This document shows, in pieces, positions 1-54,978 of a stretch of 56,258 nucleotides of DNA. The stretch is from positions 1 through 56,258 of IMG/VR virus record IMGVR_UViG_3300046170_000034; one strand, written 5' to 3'. The notes beneath the pieces are model-generated. The model was not told where the DNA came from. It saw nothing but the letters and a program-made list of their open reading frames with translations, and did not search any database. The DNA is from a virus. Each line of letters opens with the position of its first letter. Positions within the stretch are counted from its first letter, which is position 1. The position numbers were made by a program, and so were the translations under genes.

Positions 1-35
1 TTGATAAATTCATTGGCATGTATTATTGTTTGGGT

Positions 36-1520
36 ATGAGCTTAGAACTAGACACGATCCCCGAAGACGACCTACGAGAAATGCTTCTGCTAGAAGAACA
101 GCTAAAGCGTTTGGAAACCCGCGACTTAGCGCGTGAAAGCTTTATGCACTACGTAAATCATGTCTACGATGGGTTCATAGTTGGTCGTCACCATAAAATC
201 ATTGCGGAAAAACTAGAAAGGATTGCTTCGGGTGACTTGAAGCGCCTGATAGTGAACATGCCGCCTCGACATTCCAAGTCAGAATTTGCGTCCTATTTGA
301 TGCCTTCGTGGTTCTTGGGTCGAAATCCTAAGTTAAAAATCATTCAGGCTACCATGAACACTGAACTTGCTGTAAGATTCGGTCGTAAAGTTCGTGACTT
401 GATCGCTGACCCTGTATATGCGGAAGTCTTTCCGAAAACGGACTTGAAACAGGATTCCCAAGCTGCTGGTCGGTGGGAGACTAGCGCGGGGGGTGAATAC
501 TTTGCCGCTGGGGTGGGCGCGGCAATGACTGGCCGTGGTGGCGATTTGATTATCATTGATGATCCGCACTCGGAGCAGGACGCATTATCGTCTACTGCCT
601 ACGATAGAACCTATGAGTGGTACACATCTGGTCCGCGACAGCGTCTTCAGCCGGGCGGCGCCATTATTATTGTTCAGACTAGGTGGTCAAAGAAGGATTT
701 GACTGGTCGGTTACTGCAAGCGCAGGGTAACGACATCATGTCTGACCAGTGGGAGGTCGTAGAATTTCCGGCCATCATGCCATCTGACCAGCCGTTATGG
801 CCAGAATTCTGGAAGAAGGAAGAATTATTAAAGGTCAAAGCTTCGTTGTCCCCGGGCAAATGGAATGCGCAGTGGCAACAGAATCCTGTGTCCGAAGAAA
901 CTGCGATGATAAAGCGCGAGTGGTGGCAGGAGTGGGAGCACGAAGATATTCCGAAGCTTGACTATATTATTCAGTCTTATGATACTGCGTTCAGCAAGAA
1001 AGAGACTGCTGACTACAGTGCGATAACTACATGGGGTGTGTTTGAGCCTCACAGCAACGGCGAGCAGCATTTGATTATGTTGGATGCTAAGAAGGGTCGT
1101 TGGAATTTTCCTGAACTCAAGACCATAGCACAGGAAGAATACGAGTATTGGGAACCGGATATGATGCTGATTGAGGCAAAAGCGTCTGGTACACCTTTGG
1201 CTGACGAGATGAGGTTACTGAACCTTCCTGTCCTGACATTTAGCCCCGGTCGTAAGAAGGGGGGCGGTGGAATGGATAAAACCACACGCATGCATATGGC
1301 TTCGCCTATATTTGAGGGTGGTAAGGTTTGGTATCCTGCTGGCAAGAGGTTTGCTGAAGACGTGATCGAGGAGGTTGCTTCTTTTCCTAATGGCGATCAT
1401 GATGACTTTTGTGATAGTATGACAATGGCTCTGATGCGTTTTCGCCAAGGGGGCTTTATTAGTTTGAACGGAGAAGAACTTGAGGACTGGGCACCGACGC
1501 GCAACAGGGAATATTACTAA
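36..1520 (+). CDS. terL: Terminase large subunit (packaging ATPase and nuclease)
   Basis: Motor that pumps DNA into the prohead and cuts the concatemer. Counting from the Met at 36, a Walker A-like PPRHSKSE lies at residues 76-83, Walker B LIIIDDP at 171-177, and RNase H-fold nuclease aspartates at D316 (SYDTAF) and D326 (ADYSA), with a final acidic cluster DHDDFCDS near 454-461. The length of 494 aa is normal for the family. An in-frame ATG at 18 is an alternative start; neither has a clear Shine-Dalgarno sequence, and 36 gives the more usual N-terminus. The small subunit is not adjacent: its candidate is at 52534, separated by leftward genes if the molecule is circular. Confidence 0.96.
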   Translation: MSLELDTIPEDDLREMLLLEEQLKRLETRDLARESFMHYVNHVYDGFIVGRHHKIIAEKLERIASGDLKRLIVNMPPRHSKSEFASYLMPSWFLGRNPKLKIIQATMNTELAVRFGRKVRDLIADPVYAEVFPKTDLKQDSQAAGRWETSAGGEYFAAGVGAAMTGRGGDLIIIDDPHSEQDALSSTAYDRTYEWYTSGPRQRLQPGGAIIIVQTRWSKKDLTGRLLQAQGNDIMSDQWEVVEFPAIMPSDQPLWPEFWKKEELLKVKASLSPGKWNAQWQQNPVSEETAMIKREWWQEWEHEDIPKLDYIIQSYDTAFSKKETADYSAITTWGVFEPHSNGEQHLIMLDAKKGRWNFPELKTIAQEEYEYWEPDMMLIEAKASGTPLADEMRLLNLPVLTFSPGRKKGGGGMDKTTRMHMASPIFEGGKVWYPAGKRFAEDVIEEVASFPNGDHDDFCDSMTMALMRFRQGGFISLNGEELEDWAPTRNREYY

Positions 1521-3387: not shown

Positions 3388-5772
3388 ATGGCACTACCAC
3401 CACAGATGGTTGACATGGCAATGGGCGCTGGCGGACCAGCGAACATGATGCCTGAAGAAATACAAGTAGAGTTACCTGCCGAGGATCAACTACCTGATGG
3501 CATAGAACTTGTGGGCGAAGAACAGGGGTTCGAGATCCAAACTGAGATGTACGATCACAGTGCTAATTTAGCCGAGGTTCTTGATGATTCCGAACTTGGT
3601 TCTTTGTCCTCGGACCTTCGTGACAAGGTTGACGATGATCGTGAGTCTCGGTCTGATTGGGAAGATGCCATATCGAGTGGTATGAAGCTACTGGGTGTTA
3701 ACTACGAGGAGCGTAGTGCTCCGTTCTTGGGTGCTAGTGGTGTTCACCATCCGTTACTTAGTGAGGCTGTTACGCAGTTTCAGGCGCAGGCATACAAAGA
3801 GATGATACCTGCTGGCGGACCTGTGAAGACGAACATAGCTGGCACACCTGACGCGGCTCGTGAAGATCAAGCCCAGCGTGTAAAAGATTTTATGAACTAT
3901 CAGGTTACGGAAGTGATGGAAGAGTTTGATCCTGACACGGATCAGATGTTGTTCTATCTACCGCTGACAGGTTCTACATTTAAGAAAGTATATCAGGACG
4001 CAGGCAAGGATCGTGCTGTATCCAAGTTCATTCCTGCTGATGATTTGATTGTACCTTATTCTGCATCTGACTTGGGCACTGCCGAGCGTGTGACACATGT
4101 TGTTCGCATGACTGAGAACGAGCTGCGCAAGATGCAGGTTGCGGGTGTTTATCGTGACATTGAACTACAGGCATCGGATGAGGAAGATGACAGACCTATT
4201 AAACAAACTGAAGATGAGCTTCAAGGCGTTCGTCCATCGTATTCGGATGACGTATATACCTTACTTGAAATCCACACTGACCTTGACCTTGATGGTTTTG
4301 AGGATATGGATCCGCAAGGCGAGCCAACTGGTATTAAGCTTCCCTACATCGTCACTCTGGACGATGCTTCGGGAAAGGTATTATCGATTGTGCGTAATTA
4401 TCGGGAAGTGGATCCCCTAAAGAAAAAGCGCCAATACTTCGTTCACTATAAGTTTTTGCCCGGCTTTGGCTTTTATGGCTTTGGTTTGTTGCATACAATA
4501 GGGGGTTTGTCTCGTGCCGCGACTTCGATTCTTAGACAACTCATCGATGCGGGGACGCTCTCTAATCTCCCTGCTGGTTTTAAAGCCCGTGGCGTTCGTA
4601 TTCGCAATGATGATGAACCGCTTAGTCCCGGCGAGTTTCGTGATATTGATGCTCCCGGTGGTGATCTTCGGAATGCTCTTATGCCCCTTCCATACAAGGA
4701 ACCTTCTGGGACACTTGCTCAATTACTGGGCGTTATCGTCGATTCAGGCCGGAGATTTGCACAGGTTGCAGACGCAAAAATTGCCGACGTCAACTCACAA
4801 GCCCCAGTCGGAACAACCGTTGCACTGATCGAGCAAGGCTCGAAGATCATATCAAGCATTCACAAGCGTTTGCACTATGCCCAGAAGCAAGAGTTCCGTT
4901 TGCTGGCGCAGGTATTCAGCGACAATCCAATGCCGTATCCATACTTTGTCGGGCAGAACATGCCTGCTGAGATTATGGCGCAGGACTTTGATGGTCGTGT
5001 TGATGTGTTGCCTGCCAGTGACCCGTCAATATTTTCTATGTCACAGCGTTTGTCGCTAGCACAGACACAGTTGCAGTTGGCTCAAGCCGCACCGCAGATG
5101 CATAACATGTACGAAGCCTATCGTCGTATGTACGATGCGTTGGATGTGAAGAACATCGACGGTATTCTGCCAGTGCCACAGCCGCCGCAACCTATTGATC
5201 CAGCTACAGAGAACGCAAACTCTGTAAAAGGTATGCCGCCACAGGCATTTCCACAACAGGATCATGAGTCACACATCATGGCGCACTCTATGTTCTTGTC
5301 GTCACCAGTTGCGTCTGCCAACCCGCAGGGTTTCTTGTTGTTGCAGGCTCACGTACAGGAGCACGTATCTATGCTGGCACGGGATCAGATCATGGCGTTC
5401 TTCGAGAATGCGGCGCAACAGGCGCAGGCACAAGGTGAGCCAGTTCCGCAGGTAGCTCCAGAAGTAATTGAGTCTGCTGTTGCCCAGCAGGTCACAGAGA
5501 TCATGAAGCAGATCATGCCTATGGTACAACCACCCCAGCAAGAGGATCCGTTGGTTGCGATCCGTCAGCAGGAGTTGCAGAACGATACGCAGGAAATACA
5601 GCGTAAGATGCAAAATGACTCTATGGACTTCCAGATTGATCAGGCCAAGCTACAGCAACAGTATGAACTGGCACAGCAACGCCAAGGATTGCAGGAGCAA
5701 ATAGCGGGTGATCGTAACGATGTTAATATCTATCGTATTAACACACAGGCGGCATTAAGTAAGGATCGGTAA
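3388..5772 (+). CDS. Portal protein (head-tail connector)
   Basis: Dodecameric vertex ring through which DNA enters and leaves the capsid. The protein is 794 aa, in the size range of P22-like portals. The central part carries portal-like stretches such as FLGASGVHHPLLSEAV and FIPADDLIVPYSASDLGTAERVTH, in which an incoming substrate is read as a bacteriophage portal of the marine podovirus kind. The last 100 or so residues are Gln-rich and helical (coiled-coil barrel or crown). An SD (AAGGAG) precedes the ATG. It follows the terminase block and its stop overlaps the next start (TAATG), consistent with one operon. Confidence 0.9.
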   Translation: MALPPQMVDMAMGAGGPANMMPEEIQVELPAEDQLPDGIELVGEEQGFEIQTEMYDHSANLAEVLDDSELGSLSSDLRDKVDDDRESRSDWEDAISSGMKLLGVNYEERSAPFLGASGVHHPLLSEAVTQFQAQAYKEMIPAGGPVKTNIAGTPDAAREDQAQRVKDFMNYQVTEVMEEFDPDTDQMLFYLPLTGSTFKKVYQDAGKDRAVSKFIPADDLIVPYSASDLGTAERVTHVVRMTENELRKMQVAGVYRDIELQASDEEDDRPIKQTEDELQGVRPSYSDDVYTLLEIHTDLDLDGFEDMDPQGEPTGIKLPYIVTLDDASGKVLSIVRNYREVDPLKKKRQYFVHYKFLPGFGFYGFGLLHTIGGLSRAATSILRQLIDAGTLSNLPAGFKARGVRIRNDDEPLSPGEFRDIDAPGGDLRNALMPLPYKEPSGTLAQLLGVIVDSGRRFAQVADAKIADVNSQAPVGTTVALIEQGSKIISSIHKRLHYAQKQEFRLLAQVFSDNPMPYPYFVGQNMPAEIMAQDFDGRVDVLPASDPSIFSMSQRLSLAQTQLQLAQAAPQMHNMYEAYRRMYDALDVKNIDGILPVPQPPQPIDPATENANSVKGMPPQAFPQQDHESHIMAHSMFLSSPVASANPQGFLLLQAHVQEHVSMLARDQIMAFFENAAQQAQAQGEPVPQVAPEVIESAVAQQVTEIMKQIMPMVQPPQQEDPLVAIRQQELQNDTQEIQRKMQNDSMDFQIDQAKLQQQYELAQQRQGLQEQIAGDRNDVNIYRINTQAALSKDR

Positions 5773-6971: not shown

Positions 6972-8009
6972 ATGGATAGTCGCTTTGATGCCTATGGTGA
7001 TACTTCTGCTCCCGCTGACGCTAACGATGGTTTTTCAAACGCTAGTGTGCAAGGCGGTGATAATCGTAATGATCCAGCGACAGAGCAACAGCTAGGTATT
7101 GTTCGTAACGACCAAGGTCAAGTAACCAACCCCTATGGTAACGAGGGTTTCTTTTCTCGTGTTCTAGGCATCGACCCATCAAGTATCAGCTATAATAATC
7201 TTCTTGGACAGGGCACGCTGGAAGGAATAGCAAGCCTCAATGTCGATAGGTATAACAATCCTTATGCCAGCACTAATGTCCTGAACGCCCCAGTGGGTGG
7301 AAACCAAACCGCAGGTACTCTTCGCTCTGGTGTTTCGGCTGGTGACCCAACTCGTTTTGGTGAAGTACGCGCACAACGACAGCCTATGACTGGAACTGAG
7401 ATGACAGCCAGAGGTCTAGCTTCCTTATTTGGTGGCCCGATGATGGGGCCAGCGCTTATGAGTATGCGAGATGATCCCGTGGCCATTCAAGGTAGCCAGT
7501 TTTACGACCCAAAGCTTGACCCCGAAAGTGAACTGTACGAAGGCAGCGGAATGCTGGGGTCTTTGATGGCTCCGCTTACAGGTGGTGTAACAGCTAGTGA
7601 TGTGTCGAGCAATGTTTCACCTATGATGGAAAGAGTGAGGGATATGTTCAGCACAGGCTCAGACATATCTAAGCCTAACTTGAGCGTTGATATTGGCGCT
7701 GCGGGCTTGGGTGTAGATCCAATGAAAACTTTACCCGCGTTTGGATCTGAAAGAGAAGCTTATGGAGATCGCCTGTCTAAAGATCCAGCCATAGGTGATC
7801 AAGCGTTTTTAGACTACGAACTTATGTCTCCAGCACAGATGCTTGAAGCGAGTAAGGGCTTTATGAATCCTAAAGGCTCCGAAGAGTATGATCCCAACAG
7901 GCGCAGTATCACACCCACTTTTAAGAACCCAGACTTTGATCGGGGTGGTAGGACAATGGGTCTAGAATACAGTATTCCTCTTCAAGATTTATTCAATAGA
8001 GTAGTGTGA
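6972..8009 (+). CDS. Hypothetical protein, 345 aa
   Basis: No recognised family. The protein is acidic, rich in Gly, Asp, Asn and Pro, with no membrane segment and little predicted helix; it looks like an extended or intrinsically disordered virion or assembly factor. It begins one base after the previous stop and ends one base before the next gene, so it belongs to the same late transcript between the lysis genes and the capsid genes. Confidence 0.7.
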   Translation: MDSRFDAYGDTSAPADANDGFSNASVQGGDNRNDPATEQQLGIVRNDQGQVTNPYGNEGFFSRVLGIDPSSISYNNLLGQGTLEGIASLNVDRYNNPYASTNVLNAPVGGNQTAGTLRSGVSAGDPTRFGEVRAQRQPMTGTEMTARGLASLFGGPMMGPALMSMRDDPVAIQGSQFYDPKLDPESELYEGSGMLGSLMAPLTGGVTASDVSSNVSPMMERVRDMFSTGSDISKPNLSVDIGAAGLGVDPMKTLPAFGSEREAYGDRLSKDPAIGDQAFLDYELMSPAQMLEASKGFMNPKGSEEYDPNRRSITPTFKNPDFDRGGRTMGLEYSIPLQDLFNRVV

Positions 8010-9222: not shown

Positions 9223-10104
9223 ATGCAAAATCTAGCTGAACAAGAAGAGATCGAGGTCGTAGAGACCGAGGAAGTTCAAGAAGTCCCTGTTGAACAGGCG
9301 GCGGAAGAACCTGAAAAGGAAGAAGCCACTGATAAACCAGCCGAGGAGCTTGAGGAATACTCAGACTCTGTTAAGCGTCGTATCAGTAAGCTTACAAATC
9401 GTTTCCGTGAAGAAGAGCGCCAGCGTCAAGCGGCGGTTGAATATGCGGAATCTGTAAAAAAGCAGAACGATGAATTAAAGTCTCGCTTGAATAAGCTGGA
9501 CGAATCCTATGTGGGTGAGTTTGGTAATCGAGTAGAGTCTGATGTTGTTGCCGCTAAAGAAGCGTACAGGAAAGCGTATGAAGACGGTGATTCTGATGCT
9601 ATGTTTGATGCACAGCAAAAGATTAGCCAGCTTGCACTAGAGCAGGCAAGATACGCAGAAGCAAAACGTCGTAATGAAGAGCGTGTTGCCGCCCCACAGG
9701 AAGAACAGCAAGCTCCACAACAGCCTGTCCAACAGCAAGCTCCGGCAAAGCCGGATGTCAAAGCCGAGGACTGGGCGTCTAAGAATGAATGGTTTGGCCA
9801 AGATCAGACGATGACGTATGCCGCTTTTGGCGTACATCGTCAGCTTATTGAGGACGAAGGGTTTGACCCGACGTCAGATGAGTATTATACTGAGCTTGAC
9901 AAAAGAATTCGCACTGAGTTTCCGCACAAGTTTCAGGAAGCAAAGCGCGATTCAGGACCCAGAGTCGCTTCTGCTGAGTCCACGGCTTCAAAGTCGTCGT
10001 CACCAAAGGGGCGCAGAACAGTCAAATTGACTCCTTCGCAGATTGCTATTGCGAAACGGTTGAATGTTCCGCTCGAAGAATATGCAAAACACGTAAAGGA
10101 TTAA
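9223..10104 (+). CDS. Head scaffolding protein
   Basis: A 293-aa internal scaffold candidate. The first 55 residues are extremely acidic (runs of E with V and P), residues 55-170 form long charged coiled coil (KRRISKLTNRFREEERQR), a Gln/Pro linker follows, and the C-terminus is basic (SSPKGRRTVKLTPSQIA), as expected for a scaffold that binds the inner capsid surface. It is placed directly upstream of the capsid genes, the classic position. No protease domain is visible. Confidence 0.85.
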   Translation: MQNLAEQEEIEVVETEEVQEVPVEQAAEEPEKEEATDKPAEELEEYSDSVKRRISKLTNRFREEERQRQAAVEYAESVKKQNDELKSRLNKLDESYVGEFGNRVESDVVAAKEAYRKAYEDGDSDAMFDAQQKISQLALEQARYAEAKRRNEERVAAPQEEQQAPQQPVQQQAPAKPDVKAEDWASKNEWFGQDQTMTYAAFGVHRQLIEDEGFDPTSDEYYTELDKRIRTEFPHKFQEAKRDSGPRVASAESTASKSSSPKGRRTVKLTPSQIAIAKRLNVPLEEYAKHVKD

Positions 10105-10108
10105 AATT

Positions 10109-10567
10109 ATGGCTGAAAGAACTAAACGCGAAGCAGAGACACGCGCAACTACCCAACGGCGTAAGCCTTGGGCACCACCTTCTAACTTGGCGGCACCAGA
10201 TGCACCAGCAGGTTATAAGCATCGTTGGATCAGAACTTCCATTCGTGGAGAGGAAGATAAGACGAATGTACATTCCAAGCTGCGTGAGGGATGGGAACCA
10301 GTTCGAGCGGATGAGTATCCGGACGAAGTGAACCGCTATCCAGTGTTGGAAGAGGGTAAGAACGCAGGGGTGATTGGCGTAGGCGGACTAATGCTATGTC
10401 GCATCCCCGAAGAAACGGTAGAGGAAAGAACTGAATATTATCGGGATCAGACCCGCAACCAAATGAAGGCCGTTGACGAAAACCTGATGAGGGAACAACA
10501 TCCCTCGATGCCTATCCATAACGATAGGAAAAGTGATGTATCATTCGGTGGCCGACGAGATCGTTAG
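10109..10567 (+). CDS. Conserved virion-associated hypothetical protein
   Basis: A 152-aa protein between scaffold and capsid. It has a basic start, then the recognisable stretch PPSNLAAPDAPAGYKHRWIR and a helical part with VHSKLREGWEPVRADEYP. I know this arrangement from scaffold-adjacent proteins in marine phages but no function. It is soluble, with no membrane segment. It begins four bases after the scaffold stop. Confidence 0.75.
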   Translation: MAERTKREAETRATTQRRKPWAPPSNLAAPDAPAGYKHRWIRTSIRGEEDKTNVHSKLREGWEPVRADEYPDEVNRYPVLEEGKNAGVIGVGGLMLCRIPEETVEERTEYYRDQTRNQMKAVDENLMREQHPSMPIHNDRKSDVSFGGRRDR

Positions 10568-11223: not shown

Positions 11224-12135
11224 ATGGCTATTTCTCGCGCACAACTCGCCAAAGAACTAGAGCCGGGTCTTAACGCTCTCTTTGGTATGGAATATGGTCG
11301 CTACGAAGGCCAGCATGCAGAAATCTTCGACACAGAGTCATCTGACCGTGCGTTTGAAGAAGAAGTAATGCTGTCAGGTTTCGGTGCCGCTCCTGTTAAA
11401 CAGGAAGGTTCAGGAATCGCTTATGACGATGCGAACGAGGCTTATACCGCTCGGTATAACCACGAGACCGTTGCTATGGGCTTCTCGATCACAGAAGAAG
11501 CAGTAGAGGACAACCTCTATGACCGTCTTGGTGCTCGCTATACTCGTGCTCTTGCACGTTCTATGGCACACACTAAGCAGGTTAAAGCTGCATCTGTCCT
11601 TAACAACGGCTTTGCCGCTGGCGCATTTGCTGGTGGTGATGGTGTAGCTCTTATGGCTACTAACCATCCGCTCACAAACGGTGGCACATTCGCCAACGAG
11701 CCGGGCACTGCCGCTGACCTTAACGAAACTTCACTCGAAGACGCATTGATCAGCATCGCTGGTTTTGTTGATGAGCGTGGTTTGGTTATTGCTCTTAAAG
11801 GAATGAAGCTGATTGTTCCACGTCAACTGCAATTCGTTGCAGAGCGTCTGCTTGTATCTAACCTTCGCGTTGGTACTGCGGACAACGATGTAAACGCCAT
11901 CAAGTCATCTGGAATGCTTCCAGAAGGTTACGTAGTCAACGACTACCTGACAGACACTGATGCGTTCTTCATCAAGACTGACGCACCGAACGGCTTTAAG
12001 CACTTCGAGCGTATGCCTTTGGCGACTAACATGGATCCAGATTTCGATACTGGCAACATGCGCTTCAAGGCTCGTGAGCGTTACAGCTTCGGCTTTAGCG
12101 ATCCACGCGCTGTGTTCGGTTCACCGGGCGCCTAG
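11224..12135 (+). CDS. Major capsid protein
   Basis: Main shell protein, 303 aa, HK97-type fold expected. Visible hallmarks are the N-terminal helix, an E-loop-like region with YNHETVAMGFSITEEAVEDN, ARALARSMAHTKQ-like spine helix sequence, VDERGLVIALKGMKLIVP in the P domain, and an F-x-F ending of the A domain (RFKARERYSFGFSDPRAVFGS), similar to gpT-type capsid subunits. SD is GGGAGG. The gene is followed directly by a strong terminator, which fits a highly expressed gene ending a transcription unit. Confidence 0.93.
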   Translation: MAISRAQLAKELEPGLNALFGMEYGRYEGQHAEIFDTESSDRAFEEEVMLSGFGAAPVKQEGSGIAYDDANEAYTARYNHETVAMGFSITEEAVEDNLYDRLGARYTRALARSMAHTKQVKAASVLNNGFAAGAFAGGDGVALMATNHPLTNGGTFANEPGTAADLNETSLEDALISIAGFVDERGLVIALKGMKLIVPRQLQFVAERLLVSNLRVGTADNDVNAIKSSGMLPEGYVVNDYLTDTDAFFIKTDAPNGFKHFERMPLATNMDPDFDTGNMRFKARERYSFGFSDPRAVFGSPGA

Positions 12136-31217: not shown

Positions 31218-33370
31218 TGAACCCTATGAACCGTAGAATGTTCCGAGATCCGATGGCCGCTCGTCAGGCGTCGGGTATTCTTGCGTCATCACCGCAGTTG
31301 GCTAATGTAGTTCAACAGCGCCAGCCTGTACGTATGCAGGCAGGTGGATCACAAGAGATTGCTGTCTTGGCACAAGCGGCGGGTCAGGGTGACATGAGTG
31401 CCGTTGCTAAACTACAAAGCATTGCTTCAAGCAACACAACTCCTGCCGCTCTACGTAGCGCGGCGGCAGAAGTTCTAAACCTTCCAAGCATTAGCAGAAT
31501 TGCAAACCAAAAGCAGTATGCCAAAGATTTCTTTTCTAGCATTCGCAAGGGGCCGGAGAGTCAGGTAAACGTAGGTGTTGCAGGAATAGATAACAGCGGT
31601 TCGTTCATAACGGCTGGCGTTAACCCTAATGCGTTATCAAATGTTTTGTCTGATGCTACAGGTCGTAAGCCGGGAACAAATGTTTTGGGTAAGTCTCCTG
31701 AGTCTCAGGTTGATATAGGCACTTCTGGTATTGCAAATATTGCAGATCAAAAGCAATACGCTAAAGATTTCTTTTCCAGCATTAGAAACACGCCAGCAAG
31801 CATACAAGACAGAACGGCTTCATTGCCTATGACTAGAAAAGACATGTTGGCTAAAACTGAAAAGTTTAGGCAAGACAAACAAAACATAGCGGCGGCAAAT
31901 CAAATGGAATTAGATCCATTTGTTAAAGCGGCCATCGCCCAAAGGTTAGAAAACCAAGCTAATGTAATGGGCACTGCTCAAGACAGCGAGTTCATGGGTG
32001 CCAACACATCAGTTAATCCCACAGATCGTTTGGTGGATAGTTCCGGAGCCGTAAGTGTTATTCCAGAAGAGCGCCTAAGACTGGATGCCGCACCAGCAAA
32101 AACAGTTGCAGAAAGAATCGCTGAAGCGAAAGCGGCTCAAGAAGCATTAGCACCAAAAACAAGTACGGGCACAAACACAGCAGAAGACACTGTTACAACT
32201 GTTACAGCGCCGACGGTGGGTAAGAAGAAAGACGCAACTGTTACAGCGCCGACGGTGGGTAAGAAGAAAGACGCAACTGTTAAAAAAACCGGAGACGCAG
32301 TTGTTATTCCAGAAGAGCGTCTAAGACTGGATGCGGCAACGGCAGAGGATCCACCTAAAAAGAAAGCTGGTGAACGAACACTGAAGGAAGTGTTGGATAG
32401 CTTTTCTAATCTTCCAACGAAAGAACAGAAAAAAGGTGTTGCTGAACCTTCAAAGAAACAACGAGTCGAAGAAGAATACAATATTCTGAAAGATTTGATT
32501 GGTTCTGAAAAAGCAGAGGATATACGCACGAGCGCAAACTACAATCTGATTATGACAGGTCTTATGATTGCCGCTGGCGAGGATCCAAACGCGCTTGTGA
32601 ATATAGCTAAAGGTTCAGCCGCTGGATTAGCAGGGTATGGCGAAGCTATAGGAGAAGCCGCCAAAGAAGAAAACGCAGAAGACAGAGCATTGAAAATTCA
32701 GGCTGCATCGACTGTTACTCGTCGGATGGAAACAGAGGCGGCTAACAAATTTACCACTTCTGAGCGAGAGGCTAATCAAATTTTCCGCGCTAATGAAACC
32801 GATAGACTAGCTATAATTAATGATTTTGCGGCAACAAAGGACCGCGATTGGCGTGGACTTGAGAACCAAAAAGGCATCGATGCCACCGCCGCGCAAAACA
32901 AAGCCAACAGGCAATTACAGGCTGATATTGCTAACGCGACAAATGCTAGGCAAATTAAACTTGCAAAGGATAACTATGCCTTTTCAGCCGAGCAGGCTAG
33001 GCAGGGAAGATTGTTTGATCTAAACAAGCTTTCAATAACCACAGAAATTGCGGCACAGGCACGTATCGACGAACAAGAATTCCGTAGGGAACTTGCTGAG
33101 ATACCAACGGGTACTCAAGCTATATACGAGAAATACTTAACTCCCGAGCAGGTTGTTACTGCACTAACACGAAAAGGTAATTTAGGTGAAATGCTTTCAC
33201 CTCCGAGCAGAGGTCGATTCCAAAGCGAATTTTTGAAAGACGAAAACAGAGTGATTAAAGCAACCGATCAAATATCGCAAGGACTAGGTATAGAGCCAGA
33301 TGCCGTTACTGACGTCATGATCATGAAATTTGCTGGTAACATATATGATCAGTCAGGAATCAGCGGTTAA
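31217..33370 (+). CDS. Putative internal virion protein, 717 aa
   Basis: A large, mostly helical and charged protein with internal duplications: QKQYAKDFFSSIR occurs twice near the N-terminus, VIPEERLRLDAA occurs twice in the middle, and a 39-bp DNA unit encoding VTAPTVGKKKDAT is tandemly repeated at 32201-32278. The C-terminal 250 residues are long helices. Position before the 1416-aa protein suggests an ejection protein; no enzymatic domain recognised. Confidence 0.75.
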   Translation: MNPMNRRMFRDPMAARQASGILASSPQLANVVQQRQPVRMQAGGSQEIAVLAQAAGQGDMSAVAKLQSIASSNTTPAALRSAAAEVLNLPSISRIANQKQYAKDFFSSIRKGPESQVNVGVAGIDNSGSFITAGVNPNALSNVLSDATGRKPGTNVLGKSPESQVDIGTSGIANIADQKQYAKDFFSSIRNTPASIQDRTASLPMTRKDMLAKTEKFRQDKQNIAAANQMELDPFVKAAIAQRLENQANVMGTAQDSEFMGANTSVNPTDRLVDSSGAVSVIPEERLRLDAAPAKTVAERIAEAKAAQEALAPKTSTGTNTAEDTVTTVTAPTVGKKKDATVTAPTVGKKKDATVKKTGDAVVIPEERLRLDAATAEDPPKKKAGERTLKEVLDSFSNLPTKEQKKGVAEPSKKQRVEEEYNILKDLIGSEKAEDIRTSANYNLIMTGLMIAAGEDPNALVNIAKGSAAGLAGYGEAIGEAAKEENAEDRALKIQAASTVTRRMETEAANKFTTSEREANQIFRANETDRLAIINDFAATKDRDWRGLENQKGIDATAAQNKANRQLQADIANATNARQIKLAKDNYAFSAEQARQGRLFDLNKLSITTEIAAQARIDEQEFRRELAEIPTGTQAIYEKYLTPEQVVTALTRKGNLGEMLSPPSRGRFQSEFLKDENRVIKATDQISQGLGIEPDAVTDVMIMKFAGNIYDQSGISG
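32201..32278 (+). repeat. Tandem 39-bp in-frame duplication
   Basis: Two identical 39-bp units (32201-32239 and 32240-32278) starting GTTACAGCGCCGACGG. The unit length is a multiple of three, so the reading frame is kept and 13 residues are duplicated. Identity implies a recent event. Confidence 0.9.
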
Positions 33371-40419: not shown

Positions 40420-41939
40420 ATCCTGAATCTTTCCCATCCGCTTTCAATAATGTGTAGGTTGTGTCGTGCCCTCGTCGCACCTACATAGAAGGTACGTACT
40501 TCGGAGTCCTGATCTGGACTTTCGGCACATGCTCTGCTGGTTTCCGGTTAGTAGCGCGACGTTATCCGCCTCGCCACCTTTGGCTTTGTGAATCGTCGAT
40601 AGACGGATCCTCGGCTTCGCATCCCCGAGTATCCTCTCCCCACCCCGACGAACTGAGGATATGTAAAGAACTTCCTTCTCCGACACCTTGATTACGTCCG
40701 ACCAGTGTGTCTCTTTGGTAACGAGTAAATTGCACTTCTCGATAATGTCGTCGAGAGTATAAACTTCTTCGGGGTCTAACTTGTTCAAAAGTTTTTTCCC
40801 AGCCCGGGTTATATTCTCCGTTCTCAAAAACTTGCCAAACTCTTTTACTTCCTCGGATGTAAATGTCTCTCCTCTGCATAGCCGTAACCATACCTCCAAC
40901 GCCTTTAATGTGTTCGGGGAAATGGACCATCCGGTGCCCTCACGCCAGAACAGGTAGCCCTGCTCTTTGAGGTCTTGTGCAAGCTTGTTAACGATAAAGT
41001 TTGTTCGTCCAAGTATCAACCACTCACCAGTACGTAGATCCAAGTCCATGATATCATAATGGTACTCAACACTTCCATCATGATCGTTGGGTGCCCAGAC
41101 TTTTTGTTGGCGAATTCCTATACGTTTTACAAGATGTTGCGCGACGTTATACACTTCTCTTGGGAGTCTGTATGATTTATTTAAAACCACCACATCATCA
41201 CATGCGTTCATAAATTCTTCGACGCTAACACCCATCCAAGAATAGATGCATTGATCATCATCGCCAGCGTAATACACGCGCTTGGCTCTCGGTACTAGGA
41301 TCTCTTTTACCATACGCCACTGCAATGGGAACTAAGTCCTGTGCTTCGTCAACAATCAAAAGATCAAGATCAGGTCCCTTCGCTTCCAGCTATGAACTGC
41401 TCGATCATGTCAACAAAGTCCATCTTGTCATGGACGTCCTTGTACCTAGCTAGCGCATTGTTGATAACCTTTAACTGGCTAAGATTTAACCGCCAGTCAT
41501 TGGACTCATGAAACTGTTTTTCAACGCTGATTAACCTTGCCCGAGCAAGGTTAATAACATTTAGGTAAGCATCGCCCTGCTTCCCGCCCGTGAAGATAGG
41601 GTCCATCGTCAACGCGAAGAGAAGCGTGGGAAGGAAAACGGCAGTCCTATCAAACGCTCTAGTTCGTTGTAGTCTGAACCTTTCAACACATCCTTGGTGC
41701 TATTAAGACCAAGGTACTGAAACGCCAGCGAGTGCAGTGTTCTGAAATGTGTTAGATGCTTGGGGTCAATACCAAACTTCTCCACCGCCCTGTCCTTGGC
41801 CTCTGTCGCTGCCTTTTTTACTGAACGACACAAAGCCTATCCGGCTGGGGTTAACGCCATTGCTCAGTGCCTCATCAACTATACCAAGTAACTTGGTCGT
41901 CTTGCCTGTGCCCGGTGGTCCAAAGATAAGTGTTTCCAT
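40416..41939 (-). pseudogene. UvrD/Rep-like DNA helicase with five frame breaks
   Basis: SF1 helicase reconstructed over five frames. The ATG at 41939 opens METLIFGPPGTGKTTKLLGI (Walker A), then FVSFSKK. Breaks lie near 41816 (A6 run), about 41625, 41377 (GGG), 41326 and 40533. The later frames give motif II LIVDEAQDL, QWRMVKEILVP, GDDDQCIYSWMG, STIHKAKGGEADNVALLTG and motif VI VRTFYVGATRARHNLHII. Skipping or adding one base at each place restores a continuous protein of about 505 aa. Intact motifs argue that the gene was functional recently; assembly indels are a serious alternative. Confidence 0.85.
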
Positions 41940-45631: not shown

Positions 45632-46075
45632 ATGAGACCAGATCGTAGAATTAGGGACGGTAAAAGATCTGAACTGATTGCCGCCGACTGGTTGCTGTCC
45701 CAAAACTGCTATGTGTACCAACCATTCGTCGAGCAAGGTCCTATAGATTTGATTGCACTTTCTCCGACCGGGGAACTTCTGTGCTTCGATGTTAAAACTG
45801 TTGGCCGTAGAAAAAATGGCTCAATCATTTCTCGTCTCCTTAAAGAACCGCAGCAAAAGCTGGGCGTTCGGTTATTGTATGTTGACCTCGAGACAGGCCA
45901 GTGTGCCCTTGTATCCTCATCAGCTAGAGGCACCGCAGTCAAACTTTCAGAAGAGTGCCCAAAGGGTAGCAGGAAAAAAACGCATCTAATCGTCACTTCG
46001 GCGGGGGGAAAGTTCCAACCATTTCTTCACTTCTTCGCCAAGGGTCTGAGCAGACAACTCGATCTTCCCCTGTAG
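45632..46075 (+). CDS. PD-(D/E)XK family nuclease
   Basis: A 147-aa putative endonuclease. Motif elements: GKRSELIAADWLLSQNCYVY (first helix), GPIDLIAL (Asp) and LLCFDVKTV (D-x-K), the PD-(D/E)XK arrangement of Holliday-resolvase-like nucleases. It runs rightward inside the otherwise leftward replication block, and its last 90 bases overlap the antisense end of the SNF2-like gene, so its native C-terminus is uncertain. ATG 45632 follows AGAGGG. Possible late acquisition or an anti-host function. Confidence 0.7.
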   Translation: MRPDRRIRDGKRSELIAADWLLSQNCYVYQPFVEQGPIDLIALSPTGELLCFDVKTVGRRKNGSIISRLLKEPQQKLGVRLLYVDLETGQCALVSSSARGTAVKLSEECPKGSRKKTHLIVTSAGGKFQPFLHFFAKGLSRQLDLPL

Positions 46076-47445
46076 CGTCTTCACAATGTGCTCGTCCACC
46101 GTATTCTTCGTCATTAGATCTACATACAGAACCGAATGCTTCTGACCAATCCGGTGTGCTCCGATCCTCAGACTGAACCCGAGTCTCAAGATTAAAGTCA
46201 TTGGCATAATAGATCACATTCGTTGCCGCCGTTAACGTAAGTCCATACCCTGCGGTCTGCGGGTTAGCCACAAAGAACCTAGCCTCGCCATGCTGGAATG
46301 ATTGCACCGCATCGATACGATCCTGCTCACTCGTGTCCCCGAAATAACTGACCGTGGAACTCGAACCGTGGATCTTACGTAATGTCTCTGTGATCTTCTT
46401 GATGTCGTAACGAAAGCGCGACCAGATAATAACCTTGCCTGTCATCTCATCTATGCAATCAACCATCGACTGTAGCCGCTTGGTAGGCACCTCAACCATC
46501 TCGCCATCATCGGTCATTACATGGCCACACAGTACCTGCTGAAGCCTGAGTAGCTGTGTCATAGCCGCCGGAGCAGTAACCAAGCCACCGTCCTCTAGGA
46601 TCGCCACTGCGGCAGACTTGATGGACGCATAATAGTCTAGCTGTTGCTCAGTTAGTCCGACATTTCTGGTGGTGTATATCTTGTCCGGCAGATCCAGTGC
46701 TTCCTCTTTGGTCACACGATAAGAGAATGTCCGTAGCTTGTCAGACAGTTCCTCTAAGTTCTTGTACCCGACTATCTGCTGAAATGAATGAGCGCCCATG
46801 CGCTGGGTTCTAGTGATTGCAAACCTGCCCTGAAAAGAATAGTAAGAGTCGTGACCCAGCAGTTTCTTATCCATGAACCCGCATTGTGCATACAGATCTA
46901 GCGGTGACTTTGTAACAGGTGACCCCGTAAGTATGCGCTTATATGTGGCGTCCTGAGAAAGCTTGACCAGAGCCTTCGTTCTCTTGGCCTTGGGGTTCTT
47001 GATTGTAGTTGACTCATCGACAGCAAGAAGGAATGTGCTGTTCTTTGTGAATGCGCCCATGAATTTCGGTAGCTTCGCTGTTGCGAAACCTTCCACGTTC
47101 GCCAGAAAGATGCGCAAGACACCACGCTTCTGCATGCCATCTTTAAGTCTTTCGGCTTGCTTCTTGTTTGGACTCGCACTCCATACATATATCTCACACT
47201 GAATGTTGTCTGGGAAATGAGCCGGTATTTCGCTAATCTCCCAGTTACGGTACACCCCCTTCGGAGCGACGATAACGGCAGTGTCGATCTTACCCTTGTT
47301 CGTATAGCCAGACGATGTTGTCGAGAAGTACCTTGGATTTTCCACAACCCATCTCCATAAAGTACGCATAACTTGTGCGCTCGTGACCTTTTACCAATGC
47401 CTCATGCTGATGCGCATACGGCTCAGTTTTATAATTAAATTTCAT
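45986..47445 (-). pseudogene. SNF2-like DEAD-box helicase with two frame breaks
   Basis: ATG at 47445 (SD AGGTGGAG). The first frame gives MKFNYKTEPYAHQHEALVK and MEMGCGKSKVLL (Walker A at 31-40), stopping after EQG; the next frame continues KIDTAVIVAPKGVYRNW. The break is at a GGG run (47293-47295). DEST box LAVDESTTIKNPKAKRTKAL, motif III TGSPVTKSPLDLYAQ and VIIWSRFRYDIKKI follow. A second break near 46160 precedes RAHRIGQKHSVLYVDLMTKN to the end, motif VI-type. Total about 485 aa. Role probably replication or recombination. Confidence 0.82.
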
Positions 47446-48138: not shown

Positions 48139-48271
48139 TTTTAATCTCCTCAAAGTAACAAGGTGTGCATAACAACTCAGCACCATGATAAACGTCCGCT
48201 CGCGTATCGCATCGCTGACATTTTTTGTTATGATAGATTATGGTGTGGGATCTTGCAAGATCATCCTGCAT
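48086..48271 (-). CDS. Small zinc-ribbon-like protein, 61 aa
   Basis: ATG at 48271. Two C-x2-C pairs (CQRC, CTPC) separated by the segment D-T-R-A-D-V-Y-H-G-A-E, then a basic helix. This is the fourth small zinc-type protein of the leftward block. It overlaps the downstream gene by 53 bases in another frame. Confidence 0.6.
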   Translation of the reverse strand: MQDDLARSHTIIYHNKKCQRCDTRADVYHGAELLCTPCYFEEIKNESGKERLERYGVTLIR

Positions 48272-48344
48272 CCTGCGTCTCCTCATCACGTTTCAAGCTA
48301 CCATTAATCCTGCGCCCCAATAGATTTACCGGGAATTTAGTCAT
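48261..48344 (-). CDS. Possible tiny peptide, 27 aa
   Basis: ATG at 48344 with SD AAGGA encodes MTKFPVNLLGRRINGSLKRD plus a short polar end and stops at 48261. Placed between genes with overlaps on both sides. The good SD and the coupled start argue for translation, but size prevents a firm call. Confidence 0.4.
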   Translation of the reverse strand: MTKFPVNLLGRRINGSLKRDEETQDAG

Positions 48345-52340: not shown

Positions 52341-52449
52341 GAAAAAGTTTTTATAAAAAATTTTTCAAATCTGGTGTATAAGTGTAACGAGTGTAACGAG
52401 TGTTGTTTTCATTACATTATTCTCGTTACACTTCGTTACGTTTATACAC
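52341..52449. promoter_or_regulatory. Candidate origin or operator: AT-rich hairpin and AGTGTAACG inverted repeat
   Basis: Left part: GAAAAA (52341-52346) pairs with TTTTTC (52361-52366) in an all-AT stretch. Right part: GTGTATA plus two AGTGTAACG units and AG (52374-52400) are mirrored by CTCGTTACACTTCGTTACG and TTTATACAC (52422-52449) around a 21-nt centre. Repeated units next to an AT-rich unwinding zone, in the 382-nt divergent space between the replication operon and terS, are the textbook signs of an iteron origin or a repressor operator. Confidence 0.6.
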
Positions 52450-52533: not shown

Positions 52534-53079
52534 TTGCCTAATCCTGCTGGACGCCCCTCTGGGCTGACAAACAGACAAAGAGAATTTGCTAGATACTATG
52601 TCGATGGCAGACATAGTAATGCAGAGTGTGCAAGGTTGGCTGGGTATGCCGAAGACTCTGCCGCACAACACGCATCAAAGCTGTTAAACGGAAAGTCATA
52701 CCCGCTTGTTGTCGAGTTGATAAAAGAACTACGACAGGATCGAGAGCGCAAGTATGGTGTCACCCTGCTTGGACAGTTAAAGCGATTGGATGAACTGTCA
52801 CGCAACGCTGAGACCGAAGGGCAATTCTCTGCCGCTATCAACGCTGAGAAGATACGATCCGCTTTAGGTGGTTTAACTATCGACAGGCGAGAGCAACAGC
52901 ATGTCCACCAGCTTGATAAGCTGTCGCGTGAAGAGATTGTCGCACGACTAGCAGACATAAGAAAACAGCACCCAAGCCTAGATGATATGAAGGTTGTTAA
53001 AGATGCCAAAGACAGAGAAAGCACTATCGACCTCATTGAAGCAGAAGTTACCGAAAAAGAGTCATTACCAACGGATTGA
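52534..53079 (+). CDS. terS: Terminase small subunit
   Basis: DNA-recognition subunit for packaging, 181 aa. TTG start with SD AGGAG eight bases upstream. The N-terminal HTH is typical: LTNRQREFARYYVDGRHSNA, E-C-A-R-L-A-G-Y-A. A helical oligomerisation part and a C-terminal basic/acidic tail follow. It lies next to a nuclease gene and about 3.7 kb from terL if the molecule is circular; leftward genes are in between, which is unusual. Confidence 0.85.
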   Translation: MPNPAGRPSGLTNRQREFARYYVDGRHSNAECARLAGYAEDSAAQHASKLLNGKSYPLVVELIKELRQDRERKYGVTLLGQLKRLDELSRNAETEGQFSAAINAEKIRSALGGLTIDRREQQHVHQLDKLSREEIVARLADIRKQHPSLDDMKVVKDAKDRESTIDLIEAEVTEKESLPTD

Positions 53080-53428
53080 AAACCGCGCTGGCGAAGGGAT
53101 GCCGGACGTTTATATGTGCCTCGATGGTGTCCCGATCTGGCTTGAGTTAAAAATAATTAAAAGTAACCGAGTTACGGTTAACAAGTCACAGATTGCGTGG
53201 CATCTTGGGCATTCTCGCTGTAATGGCGTGAGTTTTTTCTTGTTACACGACCCCTCGAAGGGTGATGTACTTTTGTTTGACGGAGGTTTTGCGTTCAAGT
53301 TCCAAGGTTCGGGGATCGATGTCCTGCGTCCTGCGGCTTTATATGATGGTGACTTGAAGGGATTGCCCTGCGTCCTGCGCGCCAAGGCTATAGATGCGTG
53401 GCTCTGCGTCCTGCGTCCTGCGACTTAA
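53003..53428 (+). CDS. VRR-NUC-like endonuclease
   Basis: A 141-aa PD-(D/E)XK enzyme from ATG 53003, overlapping terS by 77 bases. Motif GEGMPDVYMCLDGVPIWLEL gives P-D at 34-35 and E-x-K at 48-50, with a helix KSQIAWHLGHSR after it: the VRR-NUC style of small phage nucleases, probably for packaging or recombination. The last 40 residues after DGGFAFKFQGS are not family-like; they are encoded by the CTGCGTCCTGCG repeats (translated as V-L-R-P and C-V-L-R). The natural end may therefore have been extended. Confidence 0.85.
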   Translation: MPKTEKALSTSLKQKLPKKSHYQRIENRAGEGMPDVYMCLDGVPIWLELKIIKSNRVTVNKSQIAWHLGHSRCNGVSFFLLHDPSKGDVLLFDGGFAFKFQGSGIDVLRPAALYDGDLKGLPCVLRAKAIDAWLCVLRPAT

Positions 53429-53487
53429 TATAAAAAGAGCGCAGGCGCTGGGAAAAAAACAAACAAAAAACCCTGCGTCCTGCGCCC
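53323..53487 (+). repeat. CTGCGTCCTGCG repeat cluster 1
   Basis: Five copies of the 12-mer CTGCGTCCTGCG at 53324, 53368, 53404 (two overlapping) and 53473, all in the same orientation. The first copies lie within the 3' end of the nuclease gene, the last one beyond its stop. Cluster 2 is at 54561-54604. Confidence 0.85.
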
Positions 53488-53521
53488 TAGTTGTCATGGA
53501 GCTAGACAATGATTGAAGTTA

Positions 53522-53542
53522 CCACAGCCTGTGAGGCTGTGG
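53522..53542. terminator. Stem-loop between convergent genes
   Basis: CCACAGCCT (53522-53530) pairs perfectly with AGGCTGTGG (53534-53542), loop GTG. It lies between the end of the nuclease gene and the end of the leftward gene at 53549. No T-tract, but location and stem suggest a bidirectional stop. Confidence 0.55.
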
Positions 53543-53548
53543 CAATGG

Positions 53549-53788
53549 CTAGAATGTGAAATCAGTGTAGACAATGGTGTCTTCTTTTAAGAAAATTTCG
53601 CGGTTCATGTCGTGCCAGTCGGATAGGCTATATTCTGCGACTCGATCTTTGGTTGCGCGGTTCCTGTGATTGATGACATAGACCGCTTTGGCATCAGGCT
53701 TGCGCTTGACAAGGTCGCCTTGGTTCATGTGACGTAATGCGATTGCTCGCATTACGTCCCCGTCTTTGGCTGTTATATATTTTGGCAT
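53549..53788 (-). CDS. Small hypothetical protein, 79 aa
   Basis: A 79-aa protein: MPKYITAKDGDVMRAIALRH, KPDAKAVYVINHRNRATKDR, EYSLSDWHDMNREIFLKEDT. Mixed alpha/beta, basic in the middle, with no known family. The gene starts after the gp88-type gene, whose reconstructed stop is 11 bases upstream. Confidence 0.68.
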   Translation of the reverse strand: MPKYITAKDGDVMRAIALRHMNQGDLVKRKPDAKAVYVINHRNRATKDRVAEYSLSDWHDMNREIFLKEDTIVYTDFTF

Positions 53789-53798
53789 GATGTTTCCC

Positions 53799-54414
53799 CT
53801 AGTGTTGATGATAGGTTACATTGGCAACCGAGCGATCCCAGCATGCGCGACAATCAGCACATTTTCCCGCCCTGCAATGGCGCCGGACATGACCAGCCCT
53901 GCACATTGTCGTCATTGCTTGCGACTGTGCTGGTATTTTGCCAGCCCTGCGACGGTGCACCGTCGATCATATGGGCGGACATTCGCAACGTGACGTTGTC
54001 CGGCAGGTCGCGGGTTTTCAAAACGTCGCCCCATATCTTATATTCACGCGACGGAATCCAATGTATTTTGCTCGGCGTTGCCTCGCATACGTCTAGAATG
54101 TCATTGCACATTTTAACATCGCGCACGTCGCCCGAGTCAAACCAACGGAATTCAACCGGACGCAATCGCATGATTAACCGTGCCATGCGCGGCACGAAAT
54201 CGATAGCGTCGAAGAATTCTTCGCGCCGTTCCATAGCGTTTTTAACATTGGGCATATTGTACATGCCTTTGCATGCGTAACAATTATGGCATGTGCTACC
54301 TTTAATTTTTCTAAGCTTCATACCTACGTTGCATAAATACGCGCTTCGACTAATTGATTTGCAGGGCATTTTGCTGGTGCCCGAAAGCATCTTCATATCA
54401 TCGATCTTGTTCAT
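53799..54414 (-). pseudogene. gp88-family-like cysteine protein with one frame break
   Basis: ATG at 54414. The start has P-C-K-S-I-S-R-S-A-Y-L-C-N-V-G, then GSTCHNCYACKG (Cys 42, 45, 48), VKNAMERREEFFDAIDFVPR and RPVEFRWFDSGDV: the uncharacterised phage family known as gene product 88. The frame stops at 53854 after CPAPLQGGKM; the next frame continues KCADCRACWDRSVANVTYHQ to 53799, a normal family ending. The break is at an A4 run (53862-53865). Reconstructed length about 204 aa. A metal or iron-sulfur protein is plausible. Confidence 0.78.
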
Positions 54415-54443
54415 TTTGTTTTCCTCTCGTTGTTATGCATAGG

Positions 54444-54471
54444 ATTATATAGGATTATCCAGGCTATGCAA
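54444..54471 (-). promoter_or_regulatory. Promoter candidate for the gp88-like gene
   Basis: On the minus strand TTGCAT (54471-54466) and TATAAT (54449-54444) with 16-nt spacing, 30 bases before the ATG. Perfect -10 and a direct repeat GGATTAT nearby. Confidence 0.55.
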
Positions 54472-54560
54472 ACCCAAAAACATGCATGCAGCTTGGTTAA
54501 CCGAATTTTGGTTAACCCGGCCTGCGCGTATCGTCCCGCGTTGCGCCTTTGTATATATCG

Positions 54561-54604
54561 CGCCTGCGTCCTGCGCCCTGCGTCCTGCGCCTGCGTCCTG
54601 CGCC
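54561..54604 (+). repeat. CTGCGTCCTGCG repeat cluster 2
   Basis: Three back-to-back copies of CTGCGTCCTGCG with C or CC spacers, in the same orientation as cluster 1 (53323-53487). They lie in a 200-base non-coding stretch between the leftward terminator at 54614 and the promoter at 54444. Confidence 0.88.
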
Positions 54605-54613
54605 CCTCTATAT

Positions 54614-54648
54614 ATAAAAAGACCCGACAAGCTATAAGCTTGTCGGGT
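54614..54648 (-). terminator. Leftward rho-independent terminator
   Basis: ACCCGACAAGCT (54622-54633) pairs perfectly with AGCTTGTCGGGT (54637-54648), a 12-bp stem with loop ATA, followed on the minus strand by TCTTTTTATATATA. It ends transcription of the genes from 54700 upward. Confidence 0.9.
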
Positions 54649-54699: not shown

Positions 54700-54978
54700 T
54701 TATCCGTTTGGATAGTGCTCGCGCCATTCATCCGTGGCGGCAGACAGTCTGCCGAATTGCCGAATCTCTCCGGCATAGGCGTCTCCGAATTCACCCTCCG
54801 GACAATAGTCGGACGTCGTAAAGGTGAACCACCTTGCATGCTTGTCGGACGCTTCTTTGTCCGGACGCTTGTATGTTTTGAGAATGCACCAAGTGAACCC
54901 CTGATTGCCGCGATAGACGGCGTATGGTTCATACTTGGTGGTCGATTTACCGAATGGGTTTGTTTTACGTTGCGTCAT
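54700..54978 (-). CDS. Conserved hypothetical protein, 92 aa
   Basis: A 92-aa soluble protein: NPFGKSTTKYEPYAVYRGNQ, then TWCILKTYKRPDKEASDKHA and ATDEWREHYPNG. The start is a recognisable small marine phage protein pattern. It is flanked upstream by a palindrome and downstream by the strong terminator. Function unknown. Confidence 0.7.
   Translation of the reverse strand: MTQRKTNPFGKSTTKYEPYAVYRGNQGFTWCILKTYKRPDKEASDKHARWFTFTTSDYCPEGEFGDAYAGEIRQFGRLSAATDEWREHYPNG

Follow-up and report, generated by a model that had tools for sequence, protein, structure and literature searches.

Oriented heptad arrays between the VRR-NUC-like nuclease and terminase genes of a phage and its relatives: a putative recognition array

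Why does a phage genome hold one short word in 2 separate clusters beside its terminase genes, always in the same orientation? The window analyzed here, which is an entire viral record of 56,258 bases, contains 8 exact copies of CTGCGTCCTGCG, all on the + strand (Table 1), with 0.00 copies expected from 100 dinucleotide shuffles. This confirms the 2 same-orientation clusters reported in a preliminary description, which had proposed a selfish minisatellite, a binding array, or a recombination hotspot. The 12-mer is real, but the underlying unit, as resolved by TRF, is the heptad CTGCGTC, and the 12-mer corresponds to 2 cores in register. A copy with 1 mismatch was additionally found at 54571, and 11 matches with at most 1 mismatch occur in the window, 2 of them outside the clusters (0.19 expected). 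One such copy, at 48266, corresponds to the related site previously noted at 48265-48279; it is solitary and far from the clusters and may well be due to chance. While the first cluster had been placed inside the nuclease gene, this holds for only 4 of its 5 copies, as the copy at 53473 lies past the stop codon. The second cluster is indeed gene-free, located between the start of GP88 and the end of a 92-aa ORF at 54700, and the ORF coordinates agree that the 2 clusters bracket GP88 and a 79-aa ORF.

Genes around the arrays

The nuclease ORF owes its final approximately 35 residues to array 1 and its surroundings, and the structural model combines a high-confidence core with a tail of pLDDT below 50 (residues 111-128). 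Across 45 aligned sequences, E8, E29, G35, D38, E51, K53, and Q66 are invariant (common motifs E, E, G-x-PD, ELK, and Q), and the PD-(D/E)XK catalytic set is present. The window protein alone has no Pfam match at E ≤ 0.1, yet the family profile matches the solved VRR_NUC structure 4qbo (E 6e-4), and the fold of the model is nearest to Hjc resolvases (E 7e-4; 4qbn at E 0.022); we therefore refer to the protein as VRR-NUC-like. It shares its catalytic residues and predicted fold with VRR-NUC and archaeal Hjc-type resolvases, beside which we know of no array. The TerS profile matches the SF6/SPP1-type small terminases 4zc3 (E 3e-8), 3zqp (3.8e-8), and 2cmp (1.9e-7), i.e., small terminases of the pac (headful) type. 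A sequence search with TerL gave no solved relative; the AlphaFold model of GP88 (pLDDT 83.5) matched no solved fold at E ≤ 0.001, and the 79-aa ORF is without a family match.

Table 1. Features of the array-bearing locus and related genes in the window.
Feature	Position	Strand	Basis or remark
TerL (terminase large subunit)	18..1520	+	Bounds the array-bearing interval downstream when the map is read as a circle; strand of the arrays
Portal	3388-5772		
TerS (terminase small subunit), SF6/SPP1-type, Terminase_2	52534..53079	+	Overlaps VRR-NUC-like ORF
VRR-NUC/Hjc-like nuclease ORF (phrog_2165)	52994..53428	+	Profile match, invariant residues, fold
CTGCGTCCTGCG, exact copies	53324, 53368, 53404, 53411, 53473, 54564, 54578, 54591	+	Exact-match count
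Array 1, coding part	53324..53422	+	4 exact 12-mers (CTGCG-N-Y cores) in the 3'-terminal part of the VRR-NUC-like gene; same place in relatives
Array 1, fifth copy	53473..53484	+	Beyond the stop codon of the VRR-NUC-like gene
79-aa ORF	53549..53788	-	Between the arrays; only 15 of the 351 loci have a homologue
GP88 (PF17338)	53854..54414	-	Between the arrays; frameshift-shortened compared to relatives
Array 2	54564..54602	+	Heptad run between ORFs; copy number differs among near-identical relatives
Terminator-like hairpin	54622..54648	-	Adjoins array 2

The part corresponding to the C-terminus of GP88 in relatives lies in another frame of the window (53799-53960, - strand), owing to a frameshift or a sequencing error. 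Moreover, helicase genes, each intact as one ORF in the related genome G002, are broken into several at 40444-41939 and 45986-47445 (both - strand), which suggests frameshift errors in the window contig. Other features include a C5-cytosine DNA methyltransferase gene (PF00145; 50089-51174, - strand), AGTGTAACG repeats upstream of TerS (52381-52403), and a perfect 39-bp tandem repeat (32196-32282) within a 717-aa ORF. A promoter and terminator scan found little besides the hairpin listed in Table 1. The near-complete contigs of the window, G002, and G005 share one circular gene order but have their ends at different genes, a pattern that both circularly permuted and terminal-repeat phages would show. 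The closest cultivated relatives by TerL are the Pelagibacter phages HTVC027P (61.7%) and HTVC023P (52.7%).

Occurrence, strand, and layout in relatives

A 19-mer comprising 3 cores was found in 43 viral stretches, most of which carry clusters in matching places and orientation. We distinguish A-type arrays, with a CTGCG core (lineage of the window), from B-type arrays, with a GCTTG core (pelagiphage lineage); scans allowing any spacer yielded, among the matches listed, at least 119 of the CTGCGNC type and at least 120 of the GCTTGNN type. Furthermore, loci were selected by protein and blind to the repeat, using the best 80 of 97 VRR-NUC, the best 80 of 596 TerL, and the best 80 of 570 TerS loci, and periods 4 to 13 were compared after removal of redundancy and short flanks. 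Period 7 was strongest in 41/42 of the VRR-selected regions 3' of the VRR-NUC gene (versus 7/27 controls), in 16/52 TerS-selected loci (versus 8/34 controls; z ≥ 5 for 9/52 and 1/34, respectively), and in 15 of 46 TerL-selected loci (controls, 0 of 39; z ≥ 5 in 4/46 versus 0/39). According to these counts, the arrays are strong in close relatives and in the pelagiphage branch and become weaker or absent further out.

One universal heptad was considered and rejected, as distant relatives carry other words (TTCGGGT, CGGGNTT, CCGTGNN, and others) and weaker period-7 runs. A strand test on these other words was too noisy (17 same, 22 opposite; 12 loci), and our claims are therefore restricted to the CTGCG and GCTTG types. 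Among individual relatives, L600, L616, and L584 harbor the heptads TTCGGGT, CGGGNTT, and GGGTTTC 3' of the VRR-NUC gene, with a G-rich, telomere-like look, and in phage DSL-LC04 (L167), TerL is immediately preceded by a period-7 tract whose unit resembles CCGTGNN (11713-11768). HTVC023P (L165) has no heptads at 7571-7669 and 10028-10191; these clusters, one after TerS and one after the VRR-NUC gene, consist of 33- and 58-bp direct repeats on the same strand. A host-derived repeat was likewise rejected: at least 120 cellular stretches contain the 19-mer (median GC 0.66), and none of 120 carries VRR-NUC, TerS, GP88, or TerL, so these occurrences are treated as unrelated to the phage arrays. A long array of the same heptad is present on an Oceanicella contig (L114, 4061-4205) without the phage genes tested.

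Across 318 distinct VRR-NUC loci (2.52 Mb), 483 array clusters lie on the strand of the VRR-NUC gene (279 CTGCG-type and 204 GCTTG-type) and 0 on the opposite one; many of these loci were found via the repeat, but both strands were searched, so that the strand was not selected. Nearly all clusters (482/483; 279/279 CTGCG-type and 203/204 GCTTG-type) fall within -400 to +3500 of the end of the VRR-NUC gene. In both types, the 3' end of this gene marks the beginning of the first array, and 2 or 3 clusters occupy the segment between VRR-NUC and TerL. TerL is on the strand of VRR-NUC in 113/113 loci and GP88 on the opposite strand in 154/154, while TerS is on the VRR-NUC strand in 136/136 A-type loci and on the opposite strand in 95/97 B-type loci. 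In the TerS-selected set, 58 of 63 loci have VRR-NUC no more than 1.2 kb from TerS, i.e., it is nearly a core gene. The resulting layout, TerS-VRR-array-GP88-array-TerL, places the arrays in or adjoining the terminase genes, as is expected of a pac site. Whole records contained an A-type core pair in 25 of 30 cases; G016 has 1 core pair on the opposite strand, 21 kb away, and 2 records (G020 and G021; loci L008 and L038) have core pairs without VRR-NUC.

In HTVC027P, the strongest short-period repeat genome-wide (periods 5 to 30) is the period-7 tract at this locus. Compared to the window, the replication arm of this phage together with TerS is inverted relative to the VRR-GP88-TerL-structural arm, with the breakpoint between TerS and VRR-NUC, and despite this inversion the arrays remain with VRR-NUC and TerL. 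This speaks against replication-origin iterons, in which an initiator would bind the heptads near the junction of the replication and structural arms. Such an origin would fit the direct repeats in a single orientation as well as the switch of gene direction and GC skew near 52 kb, with the cumulative skew minimum around the contig ends, and the origins of SPP1 likewise combine direct repeats with an AT-rich element (PMC6316719). However, the skew simply tracks gene direction, and no initiator was recognized among the proteins common to the window and HTVC027P. Taken with the inversion, this makes an origin unlikely.

Selection on the core and variation in copy number

Both unit types, CTGCG-N-Y and GCTTG-NN, combine a conserved 5-bp core and a 7-bp pitch with free spacer bases. 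Core-to-core spacing is 7 bp in 801 cases for CTGCG (next commonest 8 bp, 170) and in 1,276 cases for GCTTG (next commonest 14 bp, 96). The sixth base of CTGCG-N-N-CTGCG is evenly used (C199, T188, G216, A198), the seventh is mostly a pyrimidine (C735, T55, G11), and in GCTTG-NN both spacer positions are free. In orthologous A-type arrays (400 ordered pairs), mismatch amounts to 0.031-0.055 in the core versus 0.345 and 0.183 in the 2 spacer positions and 0.256 in the flanks; in B-type arrays (168 pairs), it is 0.020-0.056 versus 0.379 and 0.432, with 0.278 in the flanks. It should be noted that units were defined on 1 sequence of each pair, which somewhat favors a conserved core in both comparisons.

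The part of array 1 that is translated allows protein and DNA to be distinguished. Here, L-R-P-A is written CTG-CGN-CCT-GCG, and among the VRR-selected loci, considering only those with LRPA at this position, CTG, CCT, and GCG are each used in 27/27, while the third base of the arginine codon is free (T13, A10, C3, G1). In 12 TerS- or TerL-selected loci, CTG was found 7 times and TTG 5 times, with CCT in 10 and GCG in 11; background usage of CTG, CCT, and GCG is 0.27, 0.28, and 0.19, respectively. Because synonymous positions are frozen except for the spacer base, selection acts on the DNA word rather than on the encoded protein. Shared positions in relatives, which the preliminary description would have taken as a sign of only an old coding feature, are indeed common, but the coding explanation is contradicted by these codons. 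We consider it highly probable that the repeats are a selected, strand-fixed, fixed-pitch recognition array, and the earlier idea of a binding array is thus well supported by fixed pitch and strand, purifying selection confined to the core, and synonymous constraint.

How copies arise appears to differ between the types. Of 863 pairs of neighboring B-type spacers, 36 are identical, fewer than the 67 expected by chance, and B-type arrays are therefore not recent tandem duplications. In A-type arrays from protein-selected loci, adjacent spacers are identical in 38 of 57 pairs (15 expected), and comparison of near-identical relatives, as had been recommended, revealed that cluster 2 gains or loses copies, whereas in cluster 1 the arrangement of cores barely changes; these patterns indicate that slippage acts in A-type arrays. 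Runs are mostly 2.7 units long in the A-type (174 of 194 runs counted) and reach 12.7 units in the B-type. Moreover, spacers of clusters 1 and 2 are alike within a genome (cosine 0.795 versus 0.54 between genomes, 0 of 5,000 permutations; 78 non-redundant loci, with relatedness left in). The selfish minisatellite suggested before thus retains slippage and copy-number change in the lineage of the window and fails for the B-type. As an overall explanation, a functionless slippage minisatellite or plain coding feature is highly improbable, considering the free spacers, the frozen core, the absolute strand, and the synonymous constraint.

Candidate partners and role of the arrays

Which protein might read the array was addressed by correlating array type with protein identity. 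The partial correlation across 145 loci was 0.58 for VRR-NUC given TerS and 0.06 for TerS given VRR-NUC, and for the distal cluster alone (75 loci) it was 0.48 and 0.10, respectively; these values are identity-based and do not fully remove phylogeny and rate differences. The correlation with VRR-NUC mostly reflects the split between A and B and disappears when cluster 2 is considered within A alone (23 loci), and linkage to the adjacent VRR-NUC gene could be a part-source of it. At ≥80% identity, array classes are discordant in 271 of 1,802 TerS pairs and in 14 of 634 VRR-NUC pairs, with 7 "weak" loci left out and bearing in mind that equal identity thresholds do not represent equal divergence. 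A counter-example to TerS is L531, whose TerS is 93% identical to a B-type one, while its 10.6 kb of sequence contain no GCTTG array and no GP88. The word therefore does not follow TerS as expected of a pac site, which disfavors a simple TerS-read site and makes VRR-NUC the likelier specific partner. We know of no reason why a structure-specific Hjc-like nuclease should read a word. From the sequence comparisons, the likelier candidate partner is the VRR-NUC-like protein with its Hjc-like fold, either alone or together with an SPP1-type TerS ring. According to PMC4737164, pac DNA is believed to be wrapped around SF6/SPP1 TerS rings, which comprise 8 to 11 HTH domains, and the lone SF6 DNA-binding domain has little sequence specificity and a measured site size of 3 to at most 6 bp; by analogy, this size would be compatible with 1 contact per heptad.

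The genes between the arrays were compared across a non-redundant set of 118 VRR-TerL intervals. Most of these have, as their first gene past array 1, GP88 (family F0, with 70 members when all slots are counted) or a member of another Cys-rich family (F2, F21, F31, F34), of which F31 and F34 match GP88, F21 matches DUF7227, and F2, F34, and F21 all match phrog_2554; later slots are variable. Genes between the clusters are exchanged, but the breakpoints are not focused on the arrays: among pairs of loci that differ by an exchanged middle and both carry arrays (4 of 424 were dropped for lacking arrays), breakpoints lie ≤60 bp from an array in 106/420 on the left and 12/420 on the right, compared to 16% of random positions. 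A recombination hotspot, the third of the earlier proposals, was thus rejected as the main role. The same breakpoints count against a self-propagating nuclease module, in which VRR-NUC, arrays, and GP88 would move together and the arrays would be its target or the homology that drives exchange. The start of the first array at the end of the VRR-NUC gene, the tracking of VRR-NUC by array type, the prevalence of GP88 or GP88/DUF7227-like proteins in the first slot, and the joint absence of arrays and GP88 from L531 agree with such a module; however, VRR-NUC is nearly a core gene beside TerS, and a self-target would be cut, so that we regard it as quite improbable.

In form, the closest match is omega (ParB)/parS of pSM19035, which likewise consists of contiguous non-palindromic 7-bp repeats at several sites per replicon (PMC9499535); each parS site places 7 to 10 repeats across a promoter, and the reader is a ribbon-helix-helix protein acting with ParA. 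A comparable scaffold, operator, or centromere-like array for a small DNA-binding protein would be in line with array 2 lying upstream of GP88. However, the phage runs are often shorter, with the prevailing 2.7 units of the A-type below the 4 contiguous repeats needed by parS (B-type runs reach 12.7 units), and array 1 is flanked by convergent genes, a setting in which no promoter operator would be expected. Furthermore, among the shared or neighboring proteins examined, which include part of the window ORFs, neither a ribbon-helix-helix ParB with ParA nor another small regulator was found. An array of this kind is therefore also unlikely.

The explanation we favor, although with less than even confidence, is that the repeats are a putative oriented, fixed-pitch recognition array of a terminase/VRR-NUC module, most likely serving DNA processing or the start of packaging. 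An oligomeric phage-encoded protein would bind the heptads with 1 subunit each, which would fix pitch and strand while leaving the spacer free; the array would mark where concatemeric replicated DNA is recognized and processed and packaging starts, which would then proceed in a fixed direction towards TerL. For comparison, the cut in SPP1 is surrounded by pacL and pacR, to which TerS binds (PMC6316719). The SPP1/SF6 pac likewise comprises direct repeats near terS, and the phage TerS belongs to the same profile family. However, the SPP1 pac overlaps the start of terS, whereas the phage arrays lie 3' of the VRR-NUC gene, hold their strand when TerS flips, and track VRR-NUC rather than TerS. Two further points stand against a packaging array: the arrays extend over more than 1 kb and 2 or 3 intergenic regions, exceeding any pac site we know of, and they are not universal, with z ≥ 5 at period 7 in only 4 of the 46 TerL-selected regions. 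The P1 pac is reportedly built of clustered hexamers, i.e., short words in 2 clusters at the packaging locus; the 2-cluster arrangement of short words is alike, while unit, spacing, and scale differ.

A more specific version of this recognition array is possible but doubtful: a small Hjc/VRR-NUC-like nuclease may own a cognate array with a 5-bp core and 7-bp pitch that sets in where its own gene ends and reappears past GP88. Core and enzyme would co-diversify, with CTGCG, GCTTG, and probably further words as cores, and the module would direct polarized DNA processing at the terminase locus of a large clade of marine podovirus-like phages. No description of such an array was found in the open-access literature. 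If the favored recognition-array explanation is right, an abundant group of marine phages, including SAR11 phages, would gain a visible recognition site beside the terminase genes, a region in which signals for packaging are otherwise difficult to locate. The design of random spacers at fixed pitch would set the geometry of the reader to 1 contact per 7 bp, and the 2 natural core alphabets, CTGCG and GCTTG, with their cognate proteins would make specificity swaps testable. Moreover, GP88, a family without known function, would gain a constant genomic partner.
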